Assembly (NCBI GenBank): GCA_028287305.1
Contig: JAQBPX010000015.1
Location: 1 to 64,000 of the forward strand
Length of the DNA: 64,000 nucleotides
Direction of reading: 5' to 3'
Origin: Gemmatimonadota bacterium
Lineage (GTDB): Bacteria; Gemmatimonadota; Gemmatimonadetes; Gemmatimonadales; Gemmatimonadaceae
The translations under genes and the position numbers were made by a program. The notes under the pieces were generated by a model, which worked only from the letters and a program-made list of their open reading frames with translations, was not told where the DNA came from and made no database searches. This document shows positions 1,262 to 13,228 of the stretch, one piece after another (position 1 is the stretch's first letter; each line of letters opens with the position of its first letter).

Positions 1262-2542
1262 ATGCCAACTCGCAGAGATTTCGTCGCCCAGTCCGTCCTC
1301 GCCGCCGCCGCGATCCCGCGCTGGAAGCCGACCTCCATTCGCAGCTTGTACGGCGCGATGAGCTCGGGCGACGGCGCGCCAGATGACGAGAGCTACTGGC
1401 AGGAAATCCAGCGCGCCTTCGACCTGGATCGCTCGATCATCAACCTGAACAACGGTGGCTGCTCGCCTGCGCCGACCATGGTCCTCGAGCAGATGATCCG
1501 CGACGTGCGGTTCAGCAACGAGCTCCCGGTCCAGCACATGTGGCAGGTGCTCGAGCCGCGCGTGGAAGCGGTGCGGCGCGAGCTCGCGATCGAGTTCGGG
1601 TGTGACCCCGAGGAGATGGCGATCACGCGCAATGCGAGCGAGAGCAACGAGACCGTGATCTTCGGCACCGACATGAAGGCTGGGGACGAGGCGATCATCA
1701 CGACGTTGAACTACCCACGAATGCAGAATGCCTGGCGGCAGCGCGAGCTGCGCGACGGAGTCGTCGTCAAGCGCCTCAAGCTCCCGACGCCGATTCCGAG
1801 CGACGACGTGTTCGTGAAGGCCTTCGCCGACGCAATCACGCCGCGCACGAAGGTGATCGAGATCATGCACCTGAGCTTCCAGACCGGGTACGTGGCGCCG
1901 GTGCGGAAGATCATGGAGCTGGTGAGGGGGAAGGGCATCACGGTGCTCGTGGATGGCGCACATGCCTTTGCGCACTTCCCCATGAGTCGCGATGAGCTCG
2001 GCGCCGACTTCTATGGAACGAGCCTGCACAAGTGGCTGATGGCGCCGATCGGCACCGGCTTTCTCTACGTGCGCCGCAATCGCGTGAAGGACACCTGGCC
2101 GCTGCTCGCGTGCACGTATCCCACGGAGCAGGACGACATCCGCAAGTACGAGCAGATCGGCACGCACCCCGCGGCGAACCACAATGCGATCGCTGTCGCG
2201 CTGACCTTCAATCGCGGCATCGGACAGGACCGCAAGACGGCGCGGCTGCGCTTCCTGCGCGACCGCTGGGCGAAGCGGCTGGTGGCCTACTCGCCGCGGG
2301 TGAAGATGATCACGTCGCTGGAGCCGGGGGCCGCAGGGGCACTGGCGGTGGTGACGATCGAGGGGATGGACATCGGCAAGCTGCAGGGCTGGTTGTGGGG
2401 CAAGCACCAGATCATGACGACACCACTGGTCGGGGACGAGTTCCAGGGGCTGCGCGTGACGCCGAACGTCTACACCATGACGCAGGAGATCGACCGGTTC
2501 TCCGACGCGATGGAAATGGCGATCAAGGTGGGCGTGGCGTAA
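1262..2542 (+). CDS. Tat-exported class V aminotransferase (isopenicillin N epimerase-like)
   Basis: This is a PLP-dependent fold-type I enzyme of the aminotransferase class V / cysteine desulfurase superfamily, 426 residues. The N-terminus MPTRRDFVAQSVLAAAAIP matches a twin-arginine signal (TRRDFVA), so the folded enzyme is probably exported. The PLP-binding Asp lies in LVDGAHAF (D231) and the Schiff-base lysine in GTSLHKWL (K257). The early NLNNGGCSPAP stretch is typical of the isopenicillin N epimerase-like subgroup. The substrate cannot be told from sequence. It starts about 70 bp past the presumed IS end, with no clear Shine-Dalgarno, and is 43 bp from the MBOAT gene. A role in the glycan pathway is not shown by anything but position. 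Confidence 0.85.
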   Translation: MPTRRDFVAQSVLAAAAIPRWKPTSIRSLYGAMSSGDGAPDDESYWQEIQRAFDLDRSIINLNNGGCSPAPTMVLEQMIRDVRFSNELPVQHMWQVLEPRVEAVRRELAIEFGCDPEEMAITRNASESNETVIFGTDMKAGDEAIITTLNYPRMQNAWRQRELRDGVVVKRLKLPTPIPSDDVFVKAFADAITPRTKVIEIMHLSFQTGYVAPVRKIMELVRGKGITVLVDGAHAFAHFPMSRDELGADFYGTSLHKWLMAPIGTGFLYVRRNRVKDTWPLLACTYPTEQDDIRKYEQIGTHPAANHNAIAVALTFNRGIGQDRKTARLRFLRDRWAKRLVAYSPRVKMITSLEPGAAGALAVVTIEGMDIGKLQGWLWGKHQIMTTPLVGDEFQGLRVTPNVYTMTQEIDRFSDAMEMAIKVGVA

Positions 2543-2585
2543 GGGGCGTAGGAAAAACGGCTGACTAATGAGTAGCTTGTGTTAG

Positions 2586-4001
2586 ATGCTCTTTAACAGC
2601 CCGACGTTTGTCGTCTTCTTAGTCGTTGTTTTCGCGAGCTATTGGCGGCTCGATGACCGCCGCAAGCAGAACATCCTCCTGCTCGCCGCCAGCCTGGTGT
2701 TCTACGGGTGGTGGAATTGGCGCTTCCTTTTCCTGCTGCTGTTCGCCGCGGGAGTGGACTACCTCGTCGCGATCGCGCTCGAGGGGACCGCGCGCTCGCA
2801 CGCGCGCCGAGCGCTGCTCCTGGTGTCGCTCTCGACCAACATCGGCATGCTGGCGCTGTTCAAATACGCCGACTTCTTCCTTCGGTCGGCGCACGCGGCC
2901 GGCGGCGCGATGGGACTGTCGTGGCACTATTCGCCGCTGCACCTCGTGCTGCCGATCGGGATCTCGTTTTACACCTTCCAGGCGCTCAGCTACACCATAG
3001 ACGTGTATCGGGGACAGCTGCCCGCGACGCGCGACCCGGTAGCCTACTTCGGCTTCATCGCGTTCTTTCCCCACATGGTCGCGGGCCCAATCCAGCGGGC
3101 GACGCACCTCCTCACGCAGTTCCAGCAGGAGCGGAAATTCAACTATCATCAGGCGGTCGACGGCTGCCGCCAGATGCTATGGGGACTGTTCAAGAAGATG
3201 GTGGTGGCGGACAACCTCGCCCCGCTCGTAAACGCCGCCTATGCCAATCCAACGGCGGCGGGTAGCTGGCAGCTGCTATGGGCCGTATATGCGTTCGCCA
3301 TTCAGATCTACGCGGACTTCTCGGGCTACACCGACATCGCCCTGGGTTGCGCACGCCTGTTCGGCTTCGAGCTGACGCCGGCCTTCGCCTATCCGTATTT
3401 CGGCCGGACCATGCCGGAAGTATGGAAACGGTGGAACATGTCGTTGATGGAGTGGTTTCGTGAATACGTGTTCATCTCCCTAGGCAAGACCCGCACTATG
3501 CGGCGCCGCCCACGAGCGAACCTCTTCATCATATTCGTGTTGAGCGGCCTGTGGCACGGTGCCGCGTGGACGTTCGTGGTGTGGGGCGTCTTTCACGGAC
3601 TGATGTACCTCGCGTACGAGCTCACCGGAGTGGACAAGTATCTGAGGCGCCGACGCGAGCCGAATCGCCTGGTTGATGTCGCCCTCTGGTTCGTCGCGTT
3701 TCACATCGTCTGCTTCTCGATGATCCTCTTTCGCGCAGGTTCACTGTCGGACGTCGCTGCAATCGCGACGGGGATCGCCCATGTCCCGATCACGATCCCA
3801 TCGCCACCGATCGCCACCGGCGTCTTTGCGATCGCCATGGGTATGATGATCTTCGAATGGTTCCAGCGTCACCGGAGATTCGCGCTCGAGATGGTCGGAT
3901 GGCTGCCGTCAGCGAGGTTCGCAACCTACTATCTTCTCATGGCGATGATGTTCTGGAAGGCGAATCTTGGTTCCGCTCCCTTCATCTATTTCCAGTTTTG
4001 A
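2586..4001 (+). CDS. MBOAT-family O-acyltransferase (AlgI-like)
   Basis: This is a polytopic membrane O-acyltransferase that moves acyl (often acetyl) groups across the inner membrane for polysaccharide O-acylation. It is 471 residues, the normal AlgI size. It opens with the family-typical MLFNSPTFVVFLVV and has about ten hydrophobic segments. The conserved HMVAGPI motif and the LSGLWHGAAWTFVVWGVFHG block are present, with the catalytic histidine at H324 and a second conserved His about residue 338. Its stop overlaps the TTG start of the SGNH-like gene at 3998, so the two are probably translationally coupled, as in AlgI/AlgJ or DltB/DltD pairs. The acylated substrate is unknown. Confidence 0.93.
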   Translation: MLFNSPTFVVFLVVVFASYWRLDDRRKQNILLLAASLVFYGWWNWRFLFLLLFAAGVDYLVAIALEGTARSHARRALLLVSLSTNIGMLALFKYADFFLRSAHAAGGAMGLSWHYSPLHLVLPIGISFYTFQALSYTIDVYRGQLPATRDPVAYFGFIAFFPHMVAGPIQRATHLLTQFQQERKFNYHQAVDGCRQMLWGLFKKMVVADNLAPLVNAAYANPTAAGSWQLLWAVYAFAIQIYADFSGYTDIALGCARLFGFELTPAFAYPYFGRTMPEVWKRWNMSLMEWFREYVFISLGKTRTMRRRPRANLFIIFVLSGLWHGAAWTFVVWGVFHGLMYLAYELTGVDKYLRRRREPNRLVDVALWFVAFHIVCFSMILFRAGSLSDVAAIATGIAHVPITIPSPPIATGVFAIAMGMMIFEWFQRHRRFALEMVGWLPSARFATYYLLMAMMFWKANLGSAPFIYFQF

Positions 4002-5140
4002 GTTGGCCACCTGAAGTAGCTCGTTTTGTCGGGCGCCTCGCCCTGGTGCTGCTGCCGTTGGCGTTGGTCGGCGCGACGTCCGAGCTCCTCCTCATGGCCT
4101 CGCGCGAAACATGGACATCGGCGCGAGTCGTAGCGTACCAGCGGGATCATGCGGGCATCCTGTTTTCTCGAAAATTTCTGCCCGAGCGGCTCGCTGAATA
4201 CAAGACAGAGCTGCTTCTTCGTCATCCCGCGCCTATCGCGGCCCTGGGGTCGTCACGGGTCATGCAGTTCCGCGACTGGATGTTTGGACCCGACTCGAAC
4301 CGCTTCGTCAATCTCGGCGGGCTGGTTCAGAGTCTCGATGATTTGGAACTTGTCGCCACCTCCGCGCCCGCAGGATCCTTACCGCGCTTCCTTCTCATTG
4401 GCGTCGACGCACGATGGCTCAATGGGAACTCACGCGATCCTGACAAGCTGAGCCTCGCTACGCAGTCTCCGCTCACCTGGGAGGATTACGTGCGTGCGAC
4501 ACGCGCCTACGTCGCACGACCGCGCGTAGTCGCCAAGGCAGTCCGGCTGCTTTTCGCTGGCAAGCAGGCAATTGGCATTCGCGCGCTCGTCGATTCGTCA
4601 GGCTTTCGCCGAGACGGGAGTTTTCGATGGTCGTACTCCGTTCCGGATTCTGATTTTAGGTACGTCGACCGTGTTACGCCGACCGCATTAGAGCGAATCC
4701 GCATAGGCACCTTGGGATTCGAACGAACGAGTGGAGTGGACAGAGCGCGCCTCCACCAGCTTGGCCGGGTACTGGACGTGTTCACTCGCAGAGGCGTGAT
4801 CGTCGCCGGATTCATTCCTCCCCTGGCCGGTCCGGTGGTGGCCGCGCTCGAGGCAGACGATCGCCAGCGTCCGTTGCTGATGCAGTTCGGCCCCTCCGTC
4901 GCCGCCACCTTCGCCGCTCGAGGCCTCTCATTCGTGGACGCGTCACGCCTCGAGCAGTTCGGACTGGACGATCGCTACATGGGCGACGGCTACCACGCGA
5001 TGGAAACGTTCCACGTCGTCCTGCTGACGCGGCTGTTGCAGGACCCCAAGGTCCAACTCGCGCTTCAGGTACGTCCAGAGTGGCTCACCTCGCTCCTTCG
5101 CGATCCTCGCACGAATTACTGGTACGTGGCCGGGCACTAG
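3998..5140 (+). CDS. SGNH-like partner of the MBOAT acyltransferase (DltD/AlgJ-like)
   Basis: This is a membrane-anchored, periplasm-facing protein that probably hands the acyl group to the glycan. The chosen start is TTG at 3998, overlapping the MBOAT stop (TTGA). An open frame upstream runs inside the MBOAT gene and is rejected. The protein is 380 residues, with one N-terminal membrane helix (about residues 10-32). A serine block AALGSSRVMQF resembles the DltD/AlgX-type nucleophile region, and a C-terminal MGDGYHAM supplies an Asp-x-x-His pair. The family is diverse, so catalytic assignment rests on these two blocks and on the pairing with the MBOAT. Confidence 0.75.
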   Translation: MSWPPEVARFVGRLALVLLPLALVGATSELLLMASRETWTSARVVAYQRDHAGILFSRKFLPERLAEYKTELLLRHPAPIAALGSSRVMQFRDWMFGPDSNRFVNLGGLVQSLDDLELVATSAPAGSLPRFLLIGVDARWLNGNSRDPDKLSLATQSPLTWEDYVRATRAYVARPRVVAKAVRLLFAGKQAIGIRALVDSSGFRRDGSFRWSYSVPDSDFRYVDRVTPTALERIRIGTLGFERTSGVDRARLHQLGRVLDVFTRRGVIVAGFIPPLAGPVVAALEADDRQRPLLMQFGPSVAATFAARGLSFVDASRLEQFGLDDRYMGDGYHAMETFHVVLLTRLLQDPKVQLALQVRPEWLTSLLRDPRTNYWYVAGH

Positions 5141-5177
5141 CTCTAGGCAGGAGCCACGCAAAGGGATAGCCTTGGGC

Positions 5178-6014
5178 ATGTCGTACTCGGCAGAACTCTG
5201 GCAGTCTCGCGAACTCGTGATGCAGTTTGCATTGCGGGACCTGCGCCTTCGCTATAAGGAAGCGTTGATGGGGTGGGGCTGGGCCATCCTGATGCCGGTG
5301 CTGATCGTCTTCAGCGGCGTAATCCTGCGCTCGATCATTGCGCGGGCGGGCGGCCAGCACGTGACGCTCGAGACCGCGGCCGAAATCGCCGTGAAAGCGG
5401 TGCCGTGGGCCTTCTTTGCCTCCACGATCCAGACGGCCACGCAGTCGCTCGTCGCCAATCGCGCGCTGATCGGCAAGGTCTACTTTGCCCGCGAGGCAAT
5501 CCCCCTTGGCGCCGTTGCAGGGCAGATGGTCGACCTCGTGATCGGCATGGCCATGGCGCTCCTCGTGCTGGTGTTCGCGGGTCACATCCCGACGTGGTCA
5601 TGGTTGTGGACACTGCCCCTGCTGGCACTGCTCGTACTCAGCACCACCGGTGTCTCGCTCCTCCTGAGCTGCGCGAACCTGTTCTTTCGCGACGTGCGGT
5701 ACGTGGTGGGCGTGGTCATGTCCTTCGGCATCTTCGCCACTCCGATCTACTATACCCCGGACATGGTAGGTCCCACGGGCGCACGGCTCCTGGCCTGGAA
5801 CCCCCTCTCGGCGGTCATGCTGGGCTTGCAGCGCGTGCTGGTGCAGGGAAGCCCGCTCCTCTCCCCGCAACAGCACCAGTGGGCAGACGGCACCAGCAGC
5901 ATGGTCTGGACGCCATGGATGCTCTCGTACACCCTCGCCTGTGGCGTGACTGGCCTGGCCGCCGGACTGGTGCTCTTTCGCCGCTACTCGGCTGTGTTTG
6001 CGGAGTGGAGCTGA
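5178..6014 (+). CDS. wzm: Polysaccharide ABC exporter permease (Wzm-like)
   Basis: This is the ABC-2 type integral membrane subunit of a polysaccharide exporter, 278 residues with six predicted membrane segments. The cytoplasmic N-terminal sequence ending in RDLRLRYKEALMGWGWAILMP is the standard opening of the Wzm/TagG/KpsM family, and FGIFATPIYYTPDMV matches the family's late conserved loop. ATG at 5178 is preferred over TTG at 5172. Its stop overlaps the ATG of the ATPase (TGATG), so the two subunits are co-translated. It exports a lipid-linked glycan made in the cytoplasm, a route separate from Wzx/Wzy. Confidence 0.93.
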   Translation: MSYSAELWQSRELVMQFALRDLRLRYKEALMGWGWAILMPVLIVFSGVILRSIIARAGGQHVTLETAAEIAVKAVPWAFFASTIQTATQSLVANRALIGKVYFAREAIPLGAVAGQMVDLVIGMAMALLVLVFAGHIPTWSWLWTLPLLALLVLSTTGVSLLLSCANLFFRDVRYVVGVVMSFGIFATPIYYTPDMVGPTGARLLAWNPLSAVMLGLQRVLVQGSPLLSPQQHQWADGTSSMVWTPWMLSYTLACGVTGLAAGLVLFRRYSAVFAEWS

Positions 6015-7240
6015 TGCGGGCGAGCACCGCGCATCCACAGGTCACCTTCGACGGTGTCTCCAAGAAGCTGCGAAAGGGGACCGCGCACAACTCGCTGCGC
6101 GACCTGCTGCCCGCGCTCGCGCGCGGGCTGGTGGCTCGGGGACAGGCGCGCGAGGCGCTGCGCCGCGAGGAATTCTGGGCCGTGCGTGACGTGAGCTTTC
6201 ACGTCGGTGCCGGGGAGTGCCTGGGGATCATCGGCCCCAATGGTGCCGGCAAGTCCACGATCCTCAAGCTGCTGGGCCGGATCCTTGCGCCCACGCTGGG
6301 CCGCTGCGAAGTGATCGGCCGCGTCGGGTCCCTGATCGAACTGACCGCCGGCTTCCATCCGGACCTGACCGGCCGCGAGAACGTGTACCTGGCCGGTGCC
6401 ATCCTCGGGATGCGCCGCGCCGAGGTGAACGCGAAGCTCGATACGATCGTGGAGTTCGCCGGCGTGTCCGCCTTCCTGGATACGCCGACCCGGAAGTACT
6501 CGAGCGGCATGAGCGCGCGGCTCGGCTTCGCCGTGGCGGCGCACCTCGATCCGGAGGTGTTGCTGATCGACGAGGTGCTCTCGGTGGGCGACCACTCATT
6601 CCAGGAGCGCGCCTTCGCGCGCATCCGCACCATGGTAGACGCCGGCACGCCCGTGGTGGTCGTCTCGCACCACCTGAAGCGGGTGGCGGAGCTGTGCACC
6701 AAGGCGCTCGTGCTGAGCCATGGCCATGTGGTGCACGCCGGGGCGCCCCTCGACTGCATCAGCGCCTACATGCAGGTGTCGTCCGGTGACGCGCCACCGG
6801 GGCGTGACCTCGTGCGCATGCTGCGACGGGGGGCGGCGTCCAGTTCCATCGAGAGCGGGGGCCAGCTGGCCCTTGCCGCACTCGTGCAGCGCGGGGAGGA
6901 AGCGGCGATCGGCATCGGCGTGCGCATCATCGAGATCACCACCGGGCGCCTGGCGTTCCAGCAGTCGTCACTCATGGAGCTGGCCGCCGGGACGGGAGAC
7001 GGGGAACTCGAGGTGACGCTCGACATCCGCATGCACCTCCAGCGGGGACTCTATTCCGCGCAGCTGTACGCCACGTATCCCGGGCAGGCGGACTGGATCG
7101 GGGAGGCAGAGGCGACGGTCGTGGAGGTCGCATCCCCACCACGCTGGTCAGGCGAGTCGTGGCTCGCCGTTTCCTGTCGCTCCAGGCAAAGTGGCGAGGC
7201 ATTACAAAACCAAATGTTTGCACTCGCGAAAGAGCCGTGA
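6014..7240 (+). CDS. wzt: Polysaccharide ABC exporter ATPase with C-terminal glycan-binding-type domain (Wzt-like)
   Basis: This is the nucleotide-binding subunit that powers the Wzm permease. ATG at 6014 overlaps the wzm stop, and the longer open frame upstream is antiphase to wzm and rejected. It is 408 residues. The Walker A is GPNGAGKST and the signature is YSSGMSARLGF. Walker B is VLLIDEVLSVGD, with a switch histidine in VVVSHHLKRV. IELTAGFHPDLTGRENVYL is the characteristic Wzt/TagH block. Residues beyond about 255 form an extra beta-rich domain like the Wzt C-terminal domain, which in O9a-type systems reads the modified end of the glycan. This suggests a chain-end signal is needed for export, an inference. 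Confidence 0.93.
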   Translation: MRASTAHPQVTFDGVSKKLRKGTAHNSLRDLLPALARGLVARGQAREALRREEFWAVRDVSFHVGAGECLGIIGPNGAGKSTILKLLGRILAPTLGRCEVIGRVGSLIELTAGFHPDLTGRENVYLAGAILGMRRAEVNAKLDTIVEFAGVSAFLDTPTRKYSSGMSARLGFAVAAHLDPEVLLIDEVLSVGDHSFQERAFARIRTMVDAGTPVVVVSHHLKRVAELCTKALVLSHGHVVHAGAPLDCISAYMQVSSGDAPPGRDLVRMLRRGAASSSIESGGQLALAALVQRGEEAAIGIGVRIIEITTGRLAFQQSSLMELAAGTGDGELEVTLDIRMHLQRGLYSAQLYATYPGQADWIGEAEATVVEVASPPRWSGESWLAVSCRSRQSGEALQNQMFALAKEP

Positions 7241-7269
7241 GACGCGTACAGTAGAGGCTGCCGTTCGCA

Positions 7270-7749
7270 GTGCGTTTATCCCTCCCGCAGCCTCCCGCAG
7301 TGACCACAAGATTTCGCGTAAACGCCCCCTCCGTCGTCGACGAGACGATCGACGGAGAGGCGGTGATCATGAACCTCGACACCGGCCACTATTTCAGCGC
7401 GCAGGGGACCGGCTGTGAGGTTTGGAACTGGATTGCGGGCGGGTCCTCCGCGGAGGAGGCGTCGCTGTCGCTGGTGAGGCGCTATCGAGTCCGGTCCGAT
7501 GAAGCCCTTGCCGCCGTGGAGCGCTTCGTGGCTTCACTCCTCAAGCACAACCTCATCAGACCGGATCAAGAAGGCGGCGACGGGACGGCGCGAGGCGTCG
7601 CGCCGACCCTGGGCGAGCCGGGCGCATATTCGCCGCCCGCACTACAGGTCTACACGGACATGGAGGAAGTGCTGCTCCTCGACCCCATTCACGAGGTGGC
7701 CAGCTCGGGATGGCCCATGCCCCGCGACGCGGGCGTTCCCTCCGCGTGA
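7270..7749 (+). CDS. PqqD-family protein
   Basis: This is a small PqqD-like protein of 159 residues. PqqD proteins are peptide-binding chaperones and the prototype RiPP recognition element. The PqqD fold covers about residues 11-100, including DGEAVIMNLDTGHYFSAQG and a CEVWNWI helix, followed by a winged-helix-like SAEEASLSLVRRYRVRSDEA stretch. The C-terminal 55 residues look disordered. Start is GTG at 7270 or, perhaps better, GTG at 7300 inside a tandem 10-bp repeat. Its stop overlaps the next gene's GTG (GTGA). Together with the HprK-like and nucleotidyltransferase genes downstream it matches the HPr-kinase-related/PqqD associations found in RiPP and exopolysaccharide clusters. No precursor peptide was recognised nearby. 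Confidence 0.88.
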   Translation: MRLSLPQPPAVTTRFRVNAPSVVDETIDGEAVIMNLDTGHYFSAQGTGCEVWNWIAGGSSAEEASLSLVRRYRVRSDEALAAVERFVASLLKHNLIRPDQEGGDGTARGVAPTLGEPGAYSPPALQVYTDMEEVLLLDPIHEVASSGWPMPRDAGVPSA

Positions 7750-8453
7750 CCGGCCACGAGTTGGAGCGCGACCGGGACGTCTCCGTCGTGCTCGCAGTGA
7801 GGAACGGGGCGCGACTCGTGGCCGATGCCATCGAGTCCATCCTGGCGCAGACGGCCACTCCGCGAGAAATCATTGTCGTGGATGGCGCGTCGCACGATGA
7901 GACGCGCGACATCGCCGCGCGATATCCGCTCGTGCGAGTGATGGCGCAGCGATCGACCGGCATCGGCGGGGCCTGGAACGAAGGGATCGAGGCCAGCGCA
8001 GGTGCGACCATCGCGTTCCTCTCGCACGACGACATATGGCTGCCGGAAAAGCTGCACGCCCAGCTGGCGCACCTTGCAGGCGCGCCGCATTCCCCCGGCT
8101 GCGTCACGCACGTGGTGCATGAACTGCTTCCGGGCACCGAGTGCCCACCGGCGTTCCGGGCCGGCCTGCTCGGCCGCCCGGTGCCGGGCTGGATAATGGA
8201 ATCCCTCCTCGTCCGTCGAGGCGTGTTCGACTTGGTCGGTCGCTTCGACTCGCAGATGCGCATTGGCGAGGACACCGACTGGTTCGCCCGTGCGCGCGAC
8301 AAGGGCGTAATGCTCGACGTGCTGTCCGGCTGCCTGGTGCGCAAGCGCGTGCACGGGGCGAACATCACGCTTACCCAGTCCGACGCGCCCGGCGTGCTGC
8401 TCGACGTGCTACGACGTTCCATCGCCCGGAAGCGCGAAGGAGCGGAAGCGTGA
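7746..8453 (+). CDS. Family 2 glycosyltransferase
   Basis: This is a GT-A fold inverting glycosyltransferase, 235 residues, which is short for GT2. The nucleotide-binding start is DVSVVLAVRNGARLVADAI, followed by IIVVDGASHDET. The metal-binding acidic motif is SHDDIW, and a late GEDTDWFAR block is typical of the acceptor-side helix. Start is GTG at 7746, overlapping the pqqD-like stop. It is coupled by a second GTGA overlap to the next GT2, so the two act in the same pathway. Donor and acceptor sugars are unknown. Confidence 0.9.
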   Translation: MTGHELERDRDVSVVLAVRNGARLVADAIESILAQTATPREIIVVDGASHDETRDIAARYPLVRVMAQRSTGIGGAWNEGIEASAGATIAFLSHDDIWLPEKLHAQLAHLAGAPHSPGCVTHVVHELLPGTECPPAFRAGLLGRPVPGWIMESLLVRRGVFDLVGRFDSQMRIGEDTDWFARARDKGVMLDVLSGCLVRKRVHGANITLTQSDAPGVLLDVLRRSIARKREGAEA

Positions 8454-9166
8454 CGGCACTTCGCGTGTCCGTCGTCATTCCCTGCTACGACAGCGAGCGG
8501 TACCTCGGTGAAGCCGTCGAGTCCGCGCTCGGCCAGCGTCCCGCACCACACGAAGTGATCGTGGTGGACGATGGATCGGGGGACGACAGCGCGACCGTCG
8601 CGCGATCCTTCGGCCGGCACGTGACCGTGATCGATTCGGCGCACCGCGGTGCGAGCGCCGCGCGCAACCTCGGAGCAGCGGCGGCGAGCGGCGACGCGAT
8701 CGCGTTCCTGGACGCGGATGACGTCTGGCTGCCCGGCTCCCTGGAGGCCCGCGTGACGCTCAGCGCCGGCGCAGGGATGAACGTCATCGTCGCGGGGCTG
8801 GTGGAGCAGTTCATCTGCCCGAGAGTGGACGAGGCAACTCGCGAGCGGCTCGTGTGCCCCTCGGCGCCCAGACGCGGTCGTATGGCGGGTTCGATGCTCA
8901 TCCCGGCAGGCGTGTTCGCGCGCGTGGGGCCCATAGACGAAACTCTCCAGCTGGGCGAGATGATCGATTGGACCTCCAGGGCCGACGCACTGGGGGTCGA
9001 AACACTGTACTCCGATCGCGTGGTCCTGCGCAGGCGACTGCATGATCGCAACTCCACGATGCAGACGGGTCACCTTCAGCGTGATTACCTCCGCCTGCTG
9101 CGCTCTTCCGTGAATCGTCAGCGCAGCCCCGCCCAGGTTGTAGTGCGCAACGCCGGCCAGGACTGA
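8450..9166 (+). CDS. Family 2 glycosyltransferase
   Basis: This is a GT-A fold enzyme of 238 residues. It starts at GTG 8450 (GTGA overlap with the previous stop). The opening is RVSVVIPCYDSERYLGEAV, then VIVVDDGSGDDS, and the DxD-type metal site is FLDADDVW. The later LGEMIDWTSRA aligns with the ED-W block of its upstream neighbour and of the GT2 half of the next gene, so the three look like paralogues from local duplication. The stop overlaps the next ATG (TGATG). Confidence 0.9.
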   Translation: MTALRVSVVIPCYDSERYLGEAVESALGQRPAPHEVIVVDDGSGDDSATVARSFGRHVTVIDSAHRGASAARNLGAAAASGDAIAFLDADDVWLPGSLEARVTLSAGAGMNVIVAGLVEQFICPRVDEATRERLVCPSAPRRGRMAGSMLIPAGVFARVGPIDETLQLGEMIDWTSRADALGVETLYSDRVVLRRRLHDRNSTMQTGHLQRDYLRLLRSSVNRQRSPAQVVVRNAGQD

Positions 9167-10950
9167 TGCCGGTCGCGGTCCAGCGCTCTGACACGCCAGA
9201 GTATCCGGAGGAGGAGCAGGAGGCCTTCTTCCTTGCGTCGCTGGCGCGCACGCAGACGGCCGAGGCGCGCGTCGAGGTAATCCACGAGCGAATTGAGCTC
9301 GCCGGCTCGATCATCGCGCTTGAATTCGCCGGCGTTGTCATGCGCGACATGCTCTTCCCACCGCTGGCGCACCTATCGCTGGCCGCCTCCGGCGACGCGG
9401 ACGTCACGCTCCACGTGTGGGACAGCGTATCGACCGGCGTCGCGATGCTGCCGGCTCCCTGCGACAAGGATCACTTCACCACTCGCGGGGACATCTGGGG
9501 GATGACGAGCGCGCGCTTTCGCGCTGCGTGGCACTACCACGACTTTTCACTGAATCTGCTCGATGTCGTAACGGGTGATGGCGTGTACTGGACGCACGAC
9601 GCGGCGAAGCTACCGCATTGGTCACGCTCTTCCCCACTTCGCACCCTGTTGCACTGGTGGATGCGCGAAAAGGGGAAGCAGTTGATCCACGCGGCGGCGG
9701 TGGGCACCCCGAACGGCGCGCTGCTCATGCCCGGGCCTGGAGGCGTTGGCAAGACGACGACGTCGCTTGCCTGCCTCGAGCACGGGCTGCGCTTCCTCGG
9801 CGACGACTACGTGGTGGTGGAGCTTGACCCGCAGCCTCGAGTGTACAGCCTCTACTGCTCCGCCAAGGTCACGGAGCACGCGCTGGCGCGACTGCCGCTG
9901 CTGGCGCCGGAGGCGCGGTCGCAGGGAGTGGATGAGAAGCTCGTGCTCGACTTGCGGGAGGGTCACGGCGCGCAGATGGAGCGCTCGCTACCGATAGCAG
10001 CCATCGCGCTTCCGCGGGTTGTGGAGCAACCCGCGACGCGTTTCGCGGCGGTGCGCCCCAACGCGCTGGTGCGCGCATTCGAGTTCACGACTTCGGAGCA
10101 GCTTCCACATGCGGGATTTGAGCTTGCCGAGTTGACGCGCGAGATGGTGGCGAAGCTGCCGGGCTACGAGCTCCATCTCGGCACCGATGCGGCGATGGTG
10201 GCGCCGGCGGTCGCGGAAGCGCTCCGCATGCTGCCTCGCGCAGGCGCGCCAGCCGCACTGCCGAAGCTTCCGGTGACCGTGATCATTCCGGTTCATAACG
10301 GCACGCAGTTCCTGCCGGAGGCGATCGACAGCATCCTGGCGCAGGAGTTCGACACCGTGGAGATCGTCGTGGTGGACGATGGCTCCGCCGAAGACGTGAA
10401 GGCTGCAGTGGGAGCCCTCCGCGTGCCGGTGCGTTACGAGCGACAAGCCAACGCGGGAGCGGCTGCGGCGCGCAACCGCGGCATCGCAGCCGCGTCGCAT
10501 GAGACGATTGCGTTCCTGGACGTCGACGACCTGTGGCCGCCGGGCTCGCTGTCGATGCTTGCCGGAGAGCTCCTCGCGAATCCCGGGGTGGACGTCGCGC
10601 GCGGTCTTGCACAGCCGATGCGGTTGTCCGCGGAGGGGCGCATGACATTCCTCGGCGGTCCGCGTGATGCGTTCCCCTCCTATATTGGGGCGTGTCTCTA
10701 CCGCCGTCGTGCGTTCCGGCGCGTGGGGCTGTTCGACGCCTCGCTGCGATTCAGTGAGGACGACGACTGGTTCCGCCGGGCAGTCGAGCATGAGCTGCCG
10801 ATGATTCGCCTGGATGCCGTGACGCTGCTGGTGCGACGTCACCCGGGAAACAGCACCAAGGACCTGTCGATGGTGCAGTTGCAGGCACTGCGCGTCATGA
10901 AGATGGCCCTCGAGCGCCAGCGCACCACGCGCTTGCCGGGGGTGCGATGA
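9166..10950 (+). CDS. HprK-like kinase domain fused to family 2 glycosyltransferase
   Basis: This is a two-domain protein of 594 residues. The N-terminal part (about 1-355) resembles HPr-kinase-related proteins. It has a P-loop PGPGGVGKTTT (189-199) followed by a FLGDDYVVVE strand (DD at 213-214) that matches the acidic pair after the P-loop in HprK. The C-terminal part (about 368-594) is a GT2 enzyme with VTVIIPVHNGTQFLPEAID, VVVDDGS and the metal site FLDVDDLW (452-454), ending with a SEDDDWFRR block. Related stand-alone HprK-like kinases phosphorylate precursor peptides in some lasso-peptide clusters and occur with PqqD proteins. Here the fusion to a glycosyltransferase points to a sugar or glycan substrate, an inference. 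Both active sites look intact. Confidence 0.85.
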   Translation: MPVAVQRSDTPEYPEEEQEAFFLASLARTQTAEARVEVIHERIELAGSIIALEFAGVVMRDMLFPPLAHLSLAASGDADVTLHVWDSVSTGVAMLPAPCDKDHFTTRGDIWGMTSARFRAAWHYHDFSLNLLDVVTGDGVYWTHDAAKLPHWSRSSPLRTLLHWWMREKGKQLIHAAAVGTPNGALLMPGPGGVGKTTTSLACLEHGLRFLGDDYVVVELDPQPRVYSLYCSAKVTEHALARLPLLAPEARSQGVDEKLVLDLREGHGAQMERSLPIAAIALPRVVEQPATRFAAVRPNALVRAFEFTTSEQLPHAGFELAELTREMVAKLPGYELHLGTDAAMVAPAVAEALRMLPRAGAPAALPKLPVTVIIPVHNGTQFLPEAIDSILAQEFDTVEIVVVDDGSAEDVKAAVGALRVPVRYERQANAGAAAARNRGIAAASHETIAFLDVDDLWPPGSLSMLAGELLANPGVDVARGLAQPMRLSAEGRMTFLGGPRDAFPSYIGACLYRRRAFRRVGLFDASLRFSEDDDWFRRAVEHELPMIRLDAVTLLVRRHPGNSTKDLSMVQLQALRVMKMALERQRTTRLPGVR

Positions 10951-12938
10951 AACGCGTCCTCATGACGGGCGCGGCGGGGAGGGTGGCCACGCAACTGCGG
11001 CCACTGCTGGCGGGGGCATTCGAGGAGCTCATACTGGTCGACCGCCAGCGAGTGCAGCCGTTGTACCCCGGCGAGCGCGCGGTCCGCTGCAACCTGCGCT
11101 CCCAGCGCGCCCTGCAGAAGGTGCTGCGGAACGTGGATGGCGTGATTCACCTCAGCATCGCCCCCCACGATGGGCGACTCGAATCGCTGGTGAGCGGAAA
11201 CGTGGAAGTGGTGTGCCGGCTGTTCGAGGCGGCGCGCGAGGCGGGAATCCGCCACGTGGTGCTGCCGAGCAGCATGCACGTGTTGGGACTTTACACGCGC
11301 GACGAGCCCGTGGCACCGGGCTCGCTGCCCCGCCCGGACTCCCTCTACGCATGCACCAAGTCGTTCGCGGAGAACGTGGGGGCACTATACGCCACGCGAT
11401 ATGGGATGAACGTCGCTTGTCTTCGACATGGACACCTCACGGCGGAGCTAAACGACAAGACGGAGCCGGGGAACTGGACTTCGCCAGAGGACCTCGCGAA
11501 CTGCATTCGGGCGGCGCTGGATCACCGGTTCCTCGGATTCGAGGTGTTTCACGTCGTCGCTCCCAACGCGGGCGACGACATTGGGCAGGAATCCATTCGT
11601 CGCCGGCTGGGAGTCGAGTTGAAGGGTGTCGGCCCTTCCGCGGAGGCGTGTCTCGCGGTCATCGAGGAGTGGCACCCGCGGGATCACACGGCCCGGTTGA
11701 GGCGCGGCGGCCAGTTCGCGTCGGAGGGAGTTGCGCGCGTGCGCATGGGGGGCGCGCGACGGCTGGCCATCAGCGGCCAGGGTTCCGGCGACGGTCACCT
11801 CTGGCCCACCCCCGAGCAACAGCTGCTGCTCCAGGCGGCGCTCGATCCCAGCGACAACGCGCTCGAGGCGTTCGCCGAATGGCGGCAGCGGGTGGACGTG
11901 GAGCAGGCGTTCGGATGGTCGTCGGTGCGGCTGCTGCCGCTCGCCTACAGGAACCTGGCGGCCCTGAATTGCACCGATCCCCTCATGGGCCGGATGAAGG
12001 GGATGTATCGGCGATCGTGGTTCGAGACGAACACGCTGTTCCACCGCGTGCGGCCAGCGCTGGCACGGTTGGCCTCTGAGGGGATGGATCCTGTGCTGCT
12101 CAAGGGAGCGCCGCTCGCGATCAGCGCCTATCGCAACCTTGCGTTGCGCCCGATGTCCGACGTCGACGTCTGGGTCCCGAGCGAGCGGTTGCCGGATGCG
12201 GATCGCATCCTGCGGGAGGACGGGTGGCTGGCCGATGCGCTCGACGAGTCGCGCATTCGCGCCTTTCACGCGCTGCCGTACCACCATCCGGATGGTGGTG
12301 AGCTCGACCTCCACTGGCATGCGCTTCACGCTCGAAGCTCGGTGAGCGCCACGGCACGGCTGACCGGCAATTGCGAGTCGCTCGATTTCCTGGGTGTCGC
12401 GCTCCGCCAGTTGCGGCCAGCCCAGAGCCTGATCGTGAACGTCATGCATGGACTGCGCGTGAACAGGGAGTCACCGGTGCGCTGGATTGCGGACGCCGTG
12501 GTCCTCTCGCGCGCGCACGAGGCACCGATCGACTGGGAGCTCGTGGTGGAATTTGGCGCGCGACAGCGCGTGAGCCGGCAGCTGTGGATGGGACTCTCCT
12601 ACCTGCAGGCCCATCACGCGCTCCCCGTACCGGGGCCCGTGCTCAGCGCATTGGCGAATCGTCGCCCCGGGATCATGGAACGCGTGGAGCTCGCGTTCCT
12701 GGTCGATTCGCGGGAGGAATCGCAGGCCTTCAGTGGGAACCGGCCCCTTCGCAAGCAGCTGGCGAGAGCCGCGCGCGTCGTGGAACACGAGCGACCGCTG
12801 GTGACGGCACGGGTGGTGGCGCAATACTTCGCGGCGCGGACCCGCACCTACAAGCGGTTCGAGAGCGGGACGGCGAGGGCGATCGGCAGGCGAATCTGGA
12901 AGCGGATACGCAAGCGCATTTCACTGCGATTCGCCTGA
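10947..12938 (+). CDS. SDR epimerase/dehydratase fused to NTP_transf_5-like nucleotidyltransferase
   Basis: This is a two-domain protein of 663 residues starting at an ATGA overlap. Residues 1-245 are an extended short-chain dehydrogenase. They have an NAD-binding MTGAAGRVATQL, in which the third Gly of TGxxGxxG is Ala, a PSSMHV serine (S109) and a YACTK catalytic pair (Y134, K138). Residues about 290-600 match the uncharacterised NTP_transf_5 family: DPVLLKGAPLAISAYRNL, then RPMSDVDVWV with the metal-binding Asp pair D405/D407, then ELDLHWHALH. That family commonly sits beside HprK-like and PqqD-like genes. The reaction is unknown. The fusion to a nucleotide-sugar-type SDR suggests it acts on an activated sugar. 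Confidence 0.83.
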   Translation: MKRVLMTGAAGRVATQLRPLLAGAFEELILVDRQRVQPLYPGERAVRCNLRSQRALQKVLRNVDGVIHLSIAPHDGRLESLVSGNVEVVCRLFEAAREAGIRHVVLPSSMHVLGLYTRDEPVAPGSLPRPDSLYACTKSFAENVGALYATRYGMNVACLRHGHLTAELNDKTEPGNWTSPEDLANCIRAALDHRFLGFEVFHVVAPNAGDDIGQESIRRRLGVELKGVGPSAEACLAVIEEWHPRDHTARLRRGGQFASEGVARVRMGGARRLAISGQGSGDGHLWPTPEQQLLLQAALDPSDNALEAFAEWRQRVDVEQAFGWSSVRLLPLAYRNLAALNCTDPLMGRMKGMYRRSWFETNTLFHRVRPALARLASEGMDPVLLKGAPLAISAYRNLALRPMSDVDVWVPSERLPDADRILREDGWLADALDESRIRAFHALPYHHPDGGELDLHWHALHARSSVSATARLTGNCESLDFLGVALRQLRPAQSLIVNVMHGLRVNRESPVRWIADAVVLSRAHEAPIDWELVVEFGARQRVSRQLWMGLSYLQAHHALPVPGPVLSALANRRPGIMERVELAFLVDSREESQAFSGNRPLRKQLARAARVVEHERPLVTARVVAQYFAARTRTYKRFESGTARAIGRRIWKRIRKRISLRFA

Positions 12939-13228
12939 CTGCGCGGCCAGAAGGTGGACACGTGATACAAGGCCAGGCAGCCTGATGCTCTTCAGTTCCC
13001 CGACCTTCGTCGTGTTCCTGGTCGTGACGTTCGCGGCCTCCTGAGTGCGCGAGCGGGGGTTGTCGGAAGTGCTGTTCGATACACGGACCAACTCCTGGTT
13101 CCCCGCAGTCACTAGAGACCGCAGCCCGCCCCTTATTGGCGACCTTCGATGCGCGCCATGGCCGAGGCAGCTCTCACATCGTGTCTCGAGCTGGCGCTGA
13201 ATCGCCGGGCCGTACTTGCGCCCAGCTA
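12939..13228. other. Intergenic stretch with decayed gene material
   Basis: These 290 bases separate two converging gene runs. The only recognisable content is a 20-codon stub of an MBOAT gene (12985-13044). No Rho-independent terminator, RNA gene or conserved short frame was seen in the rest. It looks like a deletion or rearrangement scar. Confidence 0.5.
12985..13044 (+). pseudogene. Remnant of an MBOAT acyltransferase gene (5' stub only)
   Basis: From ATG 12985 the frame reads MLFSSPTFVVFLVVTFAAS and then a stop. The MBOAT gene at 2586 begins MLFNSPTFVVFLVVVFASYW, so 15 of the first 18 residues agree while the DNA differs at many third positions. Nothing of the remaining 450 residues follows. 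This is best read as the surviving start of a second acyltransferase gene that was truncated, leaving an old paralogue rather than a fresh copy of the 2586 gene. Confidence 0.75.

Follow-up and report, generated by a model that had tools for sequence, protein, structure and literature searches.

In described pathways for ribosomally synthesized and post-translationally modified peptides (RiPPs), leaders are engaged by RiPP recognition elements (RREs) that are either embedded in enzymes or act in trans (PMC10858898), and discrete lasso RREs bind the motif [Y/W]xxPx[L/V/I/A/F/Y] (PMC13381572). HPr kinase-like (HprK-like) enzymes and nucleotidyltransferases (NTP transferases) phosphorylate or glycosylate the peptides that such RREs present (PMC9266682, PMC13381572). 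In pseudomycoidin, the kinase PsmK phosphorylates a C-terminal Ser, and the attachment of hexoses to this phosphate requires PsmN, a protein with a nucleotidyltransferase annotation (review PMC9266682). In the linear polyphosphorylated peptides (LPP) of Bacillota (Popov et al. 2026, PMC13381572), LppK adds several phosphates to one Ser of an RRE-presented linear peptide (PMC13381572), and this is the closest known system to the one analyzed here. In this report we focused on a five-gene operon at 7300-12938 of a 64 kb window, the first 64 kb of contig C24 of a 4.37 Mb Gemmatimonadota genome. It is a real, conserved and apparently undescribed module that is best described as RRE-directed (RiPP-like) biosynthesis merged with glycan building, and its first gene encodes a PqqD-fold RRE protein whose C-terminal part, YSPPALQVYTDMEEVLLLDPIHEVASSGWP, consists of a lasso-type RRE-binding motif and, after it, a near-invariant segment.

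The comparison with LPP clusters reveals both likenesses and differences. In both systems the RRE, the HprK-like kinase and the NTP transferase are encoded side by side, the leader motif contains YxxP, the setting is a polysaccharide locus and there is no macrolactam cyclase; the MsbA-like exporter is a further likeness in the window's relatives (38 of the 55 loci described below), not in the window cluster itself. However, the LPP precursor is a separate peptide with the motif YxxPxVLxHQxIxFETxxS and a variable C terminus, whereas the tail here shares only YxxPx[L/V] with it, is fused to the RRE and has a near-invariant segment after the motif. Furthermore, LPP clusters have a SipW-like (signal-peptidase-like) leader peptidase, whereas no SpI/SipW-like enzyme was seen among the window genes scanned with Pfam and NCBIfam (1262-12938); GT2 glycosyltransferase genes are a regular part of the system here; and LPP are reportedly restricted to Bacillota, while the present system occurs in at least a dozen phyla. 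Since there is no visible SpI-like peptidase, no separate precursor with the LPP motif and no confinement to Bacillota, the system falls outside the definition of LPP. Lasso clusters of the paeninodin/pseudomycoidin type resemble the operon in their RRE fold, their leader motif ([Y/W]xxPx[L/V/I], represented by YSPPAL in the window protein) and their kinase and NTP_transf_5 partners. The operon differs from these in having several GT2s, in carrying RRE and tail on one chain and in lacking, as an earlier note on this DNA had stated, the lasso protease and cyclase: Pfam found no transglutaminase-like B2 protease in the window cluster, and no asparagine-synthetase-like cyclase was found there, the latter being present in only one of 75 related loci, where it belongs to a neighboring gene. 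Without the B2 protease and the cyclase, this is not a lasso cluster. A canonical lasso cluster is encoded elsewhere in the same genome (contig C23, locus L033, 9022-15022), with PqqD, transglutaminase-like protease, asparagine-synthetase-like cyclase, a leader-type sequence (YDAPTLRVYGSVLKRTLSNPLPHKQDKDGLPSTKT), HprK, a methyltransferase and NTP_transf_5. Another locus of this genome (contig C18, locus L034, 8704-11844) resembles an LPP-like cluster outside Bacillota: an NTP_transf_5 protein with a weak S24/signal-peptidase-like C-terminal match is followed by HprK, PqqD and, where the contig ends, a radical SAM protein, and a Wzz/BY-kinase gene adjoins the set.

The feature that sets the operon apart is the fused tail. 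The 149-residue protein (7300..7749, + strand; Pfam PqqD at 3e-13) probably starts at GTG 7300, a start picked from the family alignment, and not at 7270 as first proposed. Its RRE domain (7357..7557, + strand) matches PF05402 with 52 bits, above the cut-off, and is separated by a variable linker from the tail YSPPALQVYTDMEEVLLLDPIHEVASSGWPMP (7627..7722, + strand). The earlier note had seen no recognizable precursor in the operon, a statement that has to be revised in view of this leader-like C terminus, which is also present in relatives. The first part of the tail fits the lasso RRE-binding motif, and the family consensus reads [F/Y/W]xxPxL followed by the near-invariant DMxDLLLLDPIH[D/E]V..GWP. 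Among 77 aligned sequences, position 110 is F in 62, Y in 11 and W in 3, F thus replacing the lasso Y/W in 62 of them; in three Gemmatimonadota members that are more distant, the protein stops at ...LLALDPPMP and lacks IHDV..GW. Because the loci from a scan of ~85,000 species were picked by the pattern [DE][LV]L[LM]LDP[IV]H, conservation inside this pattern is partly built in; columns outside it are conserved equally well, with P113 and D120 in 77/77, W138 and P139 in 76, M121 and G137 in 75, and V133 in 74. When short open reading frames of the window and 93 related loci were searched for other [YFW]xxPx[LVI] leaders, the 91 matches were scattered and none was conserved, and a separate precursor peptide was rejected as a candidate. 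This bears on one alternative, in which the tail would be a cis-acting gate that fills the RRE groove until the true precursor, encoded elsewhere, displaces it. The grooves of lasso and LPP RREs do bind leaders in trans, and the tail bears the same type of motif, but these loci hold no conserved second YxxPxL peptide, and a gate would not need a post-motif segment conserved equally to the motif; we consider it unlikely. A second, different locus combining an RRE with a tail and a glycosyltransferase exists in the window genome (contig C29, locus L035, 8516-12863), where an HprK-resembling P-loop protein is followed by PqqD fused to a twin-arginine-like tail (TRRSVLLKVAALALAPTIIRMVAPTTASAAS), together with a PF11397 GlcNAc-type glycosyltransferase and an HtrL_YibB protein.

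The predicted structure of the tail protein is in keeping with an RRE that carries its own leader. In an AlphaFold2 model built with the 77 sequences, the predicted local distance difference test score (pLDDT), 87 for the whole model, is 93-98 in the RRE, 67-77 in the linker, 95 for residues 111-120 and 58-70 beyond residue 120, and the tail motif forms an extra strand at residues 116-118. In the comparison with RREs that had been proposed for this protein, the best structural matches were leader-bound lasso RREs: TbiB1 (5v1v, Z 12.6 and 12.4, the former with a root-mean-square deviation of 1.9 over 87 aligned residues) and TfuB1 (6jx3, Z 11.6). In addition, the complex of NisB with the NisA leader aligns with model residues 1-120 (Z 7.9), and an alignment reaching residue 120 is consistent with the tail occupying the place of a bound leader. 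The tail motif is predicted from this model to dock in cis on its own RRE.

The tail gene is followed by four genes on the + strand, in a tight operon with coding overlaps of 40, 4, 1 and 4 bases, and Pfam and NCBIfam bear out the set of five overlapping genes originally described. These are GT2 glycosyltransferase A (7710..8453; PF00535 at 2.4e-21), GT2 glycosyltransferase B (8450..9166; PF00535 at 1.8e-28), whose start is called at GTG 8450 in place of 8141, an HprK-like kinase fused to a GT2 (9166..10950; model pLDDT 90.8), with full-length homologues of 43-51% identity in three Gemmatimonadaceae genomes, and a short-chain dehydrogenase/reductase (SDR)/epimerase fused to NTP_transf_5 (10947..12938; PF01370 at 1.5e-18, PF14907 at 3.5e-33 and 115.7 bits). 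No curated NCBIfam family scored above cut-off for the tail protein, the kinase or NTP_transf_5 in the window and the relatives tested. For the kinase domain (9166..10245), the Pfam Hpr_kinase_C match is weak (17 bits vs a cut-off of 33), and NCBIfam HprK_rel_A and HprK_rel_B match at 1.9e-7 and 1.5e-6, both under the model cut-offs; a profile built from its homologues finds solved HPr kinases (5e-6) and, with 4e-11 across 186 columns, the kinase of the genome's own lasso cluster. The HprK assignment holds because of these HprK_rel and profile matches. In 68 kinase sequences, G193, G195 and K196 of the P-loop (GxxGxGK[ST], near 9733-9756) are found in 99-100% and the Asp pair (213/214) in 97%, while His175 and Lys258 are near-invariant. 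When the HprK-GT2 model was searched with Foldseek, the GT2 domain (domain C, 10276..10947; PF00535 at 8.8e-26; heparosan synthase 2, Z 24.7) dominated the matches, and the kinase fold therefore rests mainly on sequence profiles; phosphoenolpyruvate carboxykinase (PEPCK; 1ayl, 6com) was also listed, its alignments being longer than the GT2 domain by itself would allow. In the NTP_transf_5 domain (11928..12608), the LKG (385-387) and D-x-D (405, 407) motifs are intact, and both are conserved in 56 sequences (D405 in 89%, D407 in 95%). The catalytic Asp residues of the GT2s are mostly retained. Catalytic residues have been kept across homologues, contrary to the loss that would have counted against the module first proposed.

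This module is widespread. A profile search of 395 Gemmatimonadota genomes found the tail protein in 13 (E 1e-24 or better), clearly separate from PqqD-only matches (8e-14 or worse), and a separate search found the window-type HprK subfamily in 12, all within these 13. The resulting counts (both 12, tail only 1, kinase only 0, neither 382) give a Fisher p of 5e-22, a value that ignores relatedness between genomes; the sole tail-only genome has a completeness of 82%, and the contig in question is cut. The scan of ~85,000 species returned 199 loci encoding a relative, and the best 80 of these are assigned to Gemmatimonadota, Chloroflexota, Nitrospirota, Cyanobacteria, Acidobacteria, Bacteroidetes/Ignavibacteria, several proteobacterial and desulfobacterial groups, Planctomycetes, Verrucomicrobia/Lentisphaerae, Bipolaricaulota, Bacillota and Actinobacteria. 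The tail-protein loci span at least a dozen phyla, most carriers being metagenome bins whose single taxon labels may be wrong; one contig named Candidatus Kuenenia (L098) lies within a genome (G235) placed in the window's own family, a conflict of naming or binning. Cultured carriers include Oscillatoria PCC 10802, Dolichospermum UHCC 0259, Chamaesiphon CCALA 037, Intrasporangium chromatireducens and Crinalium epipsammum PCC 9333. The plasmid pCRI9333.04 of Crinalium holds a cassette comprising the tail protein (verified separately), two nucleotidyltransferase-family proteins, an HPr kinase, an FkbM methyltransferase, two glycosyltransferases and an ABC transporter, with no annotated protease, the annotation of this cassette being generic.

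Gene neighborhoods show the same association. Of 75 non-duplicate loci, 55 have enough sequence downstream of the tail gene, and there we found HprK in 47, GT2 in 49, NTP_transf_5 in 44 and the MsbA-like exporter in 38, with HprK, GT2 and NTP_transf_5 together in 43; distant members may be missed in these counts because relatives of the window served to train the models. Eight of the 55 loci have no nearby HprK, and seven of these eight genomes encode one elsewhere (E 1e-84 to 1e-106), so the link between tail and HprK is more than adjacency. Within 8 kb, 313 of 334 core matches share the strand of the tail gene, and the next gene is HprK in 34 loci, NTP_transf_5 in 14 and GT2 in 13. The number of GT2s per locus varies from 0 to 7 and is usually 2 or 3. 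There are two recurrent layouts: tail, GT2s or NTP_transf_5, exporter and HprK-GT2 fusion (the fusion being found in 16 open reading frames), or tail, unfused HprK, GT2s, exporter and NTP_transf_5. The three Gemmatimonadaceae with full-length HprK-GT2 homologues have the order PqqD-tail, NTP_transf_5, ABC exporter, HprK-GT2. Two of them carry GT2s between tail protein and NTP_transf_5, two carry an SDR behind the fusion, and one has its cluster divided over two contigs. As for the joining of both odd enzymes to carbohydrate enzymes, to which the earlier note had drawn attention, the two fusions are real, but only that of HprK to GT2 recurs; SDR and NTP_transf_5 are separate genes in relatives, and their fusion, with NTP_transf_5 as the terminal gene, is private to the window. 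The fusions are therefore secondary, HprK-GT2 being one of two common layouts and SDR-NTP_transf_5 a private rearrangement. Recurrent accessory genes, identified from sequence and partly via Pfam, include GT4 (16 loci), sulfotransferases (10) and radical SAM proteins (9), and a methyltransferase, a MocA-type oxidoreductase, a GlcNAc 2-epimerase and a GDSL-like protein occur in single loci; they are predominantly sugar enzymes.

Several neighborhoods deserve mention in their own right. Loci L068 (3975-8255) and L069 (3287-8033) form a pair: in genome G387, a single open reading frame of 1426 residues joins NTP_transf_5, exporter and HprK-GT2, whereas G068, a genome assigned to another family, encodes them separately in a near-identical cluster; the likeness possibly reflects a contig shared by misbinning or recent transfer, possibly with frameshifts. 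In two Chloroflexota loci (L099 and L103), other genes follow the tail gene, including an importer-type binding protein in L099, and HprK is elsewhere in the genome for L099 and ~7 kb away in L103. Taken together, the module, its tail and their co-occurrence are well supported, and the combination of PqqD, HprK, NTP_transf_5 and carbohydrate enzymes recurs in other genomes and is not a random assortment. From the absence of the relatives' exporter from the window, its private SDR-NTP_transf_5 fusion and the presence of a real lasso cluster in the same genome, one might suspect that a lasso or LPP cluster has decayed or been rearranged by chance beside exopolysaccharide genes and has no dedicated function. 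However, this explanation is highly improbable for a module that spans at least a dozen phyla, keeps its catalytic residues and shows near-perfect co-occurrence.

How the product might leave the cell is suggested by the genes upstream. The MsbA-like transporter of the relatives is absent from the window cluster, and the window genome holds no close ortholog of it; the candidates elsewhere in the genome were only general ABC exporters of <=41% identity, many of them partial, and were rejected. Directly upstream of the operon lie a Wzm-like ABC permease (5172..6014, + strand; NCBIfam Wzm/RfbD at 8e-13, under the model cut-off) and a Wzt-like ABC ATPase with a C-terminal extension (6014..7240, + strand; ABC_tran at 5e-18, Wzt/RfbE at 3.5e-47, under cut-off), the start of the latter (ATG 6014) being taken from sequence reading. 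Because the relatives have a dedicated ABC exporter that the window genome lacks, Wzm/Wzt is likely to be the substitute and probably acts as the exporter of the window system, which makes the same suggestion in the earlier note a reasonable one. Two cyanobacterial loci (L108 and L140) carry Wzm and Wzt beside NTP_transf_5, HprK and the tail protein. In MsbA/HepA/PglK-type and Wzm/Wzt glycan or glycolipid export systems, as here, the exporter families adjoin glycosyltransferases; unlike those systems, the window cluster and the Crinalium cassette showed no lipid-carrier initiating transferase.

We propose that the operon may encode a self-contained, RRE-directed phospho-glycan pathway with the tail as self-presented substrate or primer, a reading to which we give somewhat less than an even chance. 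The leader motif would dock in cis on the RRE via the flexible linker, and the PqqD protein would thereby permanently present its own tail to the pathway enzymes, much like a leader-loaded RRE in lasso and LPP pathways. The HprK-like kinase would then phosphorylate a tail hydroxyl, either Ser/Thr119 or a Ser/Thr after GWP; NTP_transf_5 would put the first sugar on that phosphate, as PsmN reportedly does in pseudomycoidin; the GT2s, one of them joined to the kinase, would lengthen a short glycan, with tailoring by the SDR and other sugar enzymes; and the ABC exporter, MsbA-like in most loci and probably Wzm/Wzt here, would move the product or its glycan across the membrane. The catalytic steps, the acceptor and the export cargo are all inferred, and it is by analogy with the pseudomycoidin and LPP kinases and transferases that the tail past the docked motif appears as the natural substrate.

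Several points weigh against this proposal. The cis placement comes from pLDDT and secondary structure, not from contacts. The tail has no strictly conserved hydroxyl: 70 of 77 sequences have Ser or Thr at position 119, and the seven others carry a Ser or Thr later in the tail. A near-invariant tail would be unusual for a RiPP core and fits a docking segment equally. No protease was found, which leaves a peptide product without its usual route of release (an S24 peptidase model matched 0 of 75 related loci, a weak test since it was built from one sequence), and LppN, the LPP NTP transferase, had no detectable effect in a heterologous host (PMC13381572). T119 as the single phosphorylation site was rejected, since the seven loci without Ser/Thr there are all kinase-bearing by the same models. 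Some of these observations would suit a different role, in which the tail is a docking scaffold and the RRE with its docked tail gathers HprK, NTP_transf_5 and GT2s on a non-peptide acceptor (a sugar or lipid-linked sugar), the product being flipped by the MsbA-like or Wzm/Wzt exporter. Besides the variable hydroxyls and the missing protease, a scaffold would account for a tail that stays near-invariant while GT2 number varies, for exporters akin to glycan and glycolipid transporters, and for accessory genes that are mostly sugar enzymes. However, RRE-presented peptides are the substrates of the characterized relatives of the kinase and transferase (PMC9266682, PMC13381572), a lipid-carrier initiating transferase was seen neither in the window cluster nor in the Crinalium cassette, and the segment after the leader motif is located exactly at the core position. 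We view the scaffold as the chief rival, a tenable but tentative possibility. A bolder extension of the proposal, which we regard as rather doubtful, is that these loci might represent a widespread class of peptide-primed glycans, in which a leader-bearing recognition domain with an invariant acceptor tail would be a reusable gene-encoded primer or carrier replacing the lipid carrier, on which kinase and NTP_transf_5 would start and GT2s would extend an exported glycan.

The surroundings of the operon include, upstream, an MBOAT gene (2586-4001) and a further gene near Wzm/Wzt and MBOAT that matches no family in Pfam or NCBIfam. A class V aminotransferase-like protein is encoded at 1262-2542, its top NCBIfam match, under cut-off, being PvdN, a periplasmic protein of pyoverdine tailoring. 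At the far end of the block from Wzm to NTP_transf_5, a short remnant (12985-13044, MLFSSPTFVVFLVVTFAAS*) repeats the start of the MBOAT gene (2586, MLFNSPTFVVFLVVVFASYW) and may be the scar of a duplication or insertion.

The presence of a recognition domain and its recognized sequence on one chain, kept across distant phyla, is what distinguishes this family from described RREs, which sit in enzymes or act in trans. Borosins offer a partial parallel, since their precursors are fused to their own modifying enzyme, a methyltransferase acting on its own tail. In both cases a substrate-like peptide forms the C terminus of a pathway protein, but the partner in borosins is the methyltransferase, whereas here it is only a recognition domain. 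Related openly licensed literature led only to the LPP paper and to RRE and lasso surveys; in it we found neither an RRE fused to its own leader and tail, an absence that is not proof of novelty, nor a paper on the combination of PqqD, HprK and exopolysaccharide. The system ties peptide-recognition logic to glycan building, and it comes with a sequence handle, [F/Y]xxPxLxKY[T/S]DMQDLLLLDPIHEVDExGWP, by which it can be found. It is also a testable case for the role of NTP_transf_5 enzymes, and the compact plasmid-borne cassette of the cultured cyanobacterium Crinalium is one that could be expressed whole.

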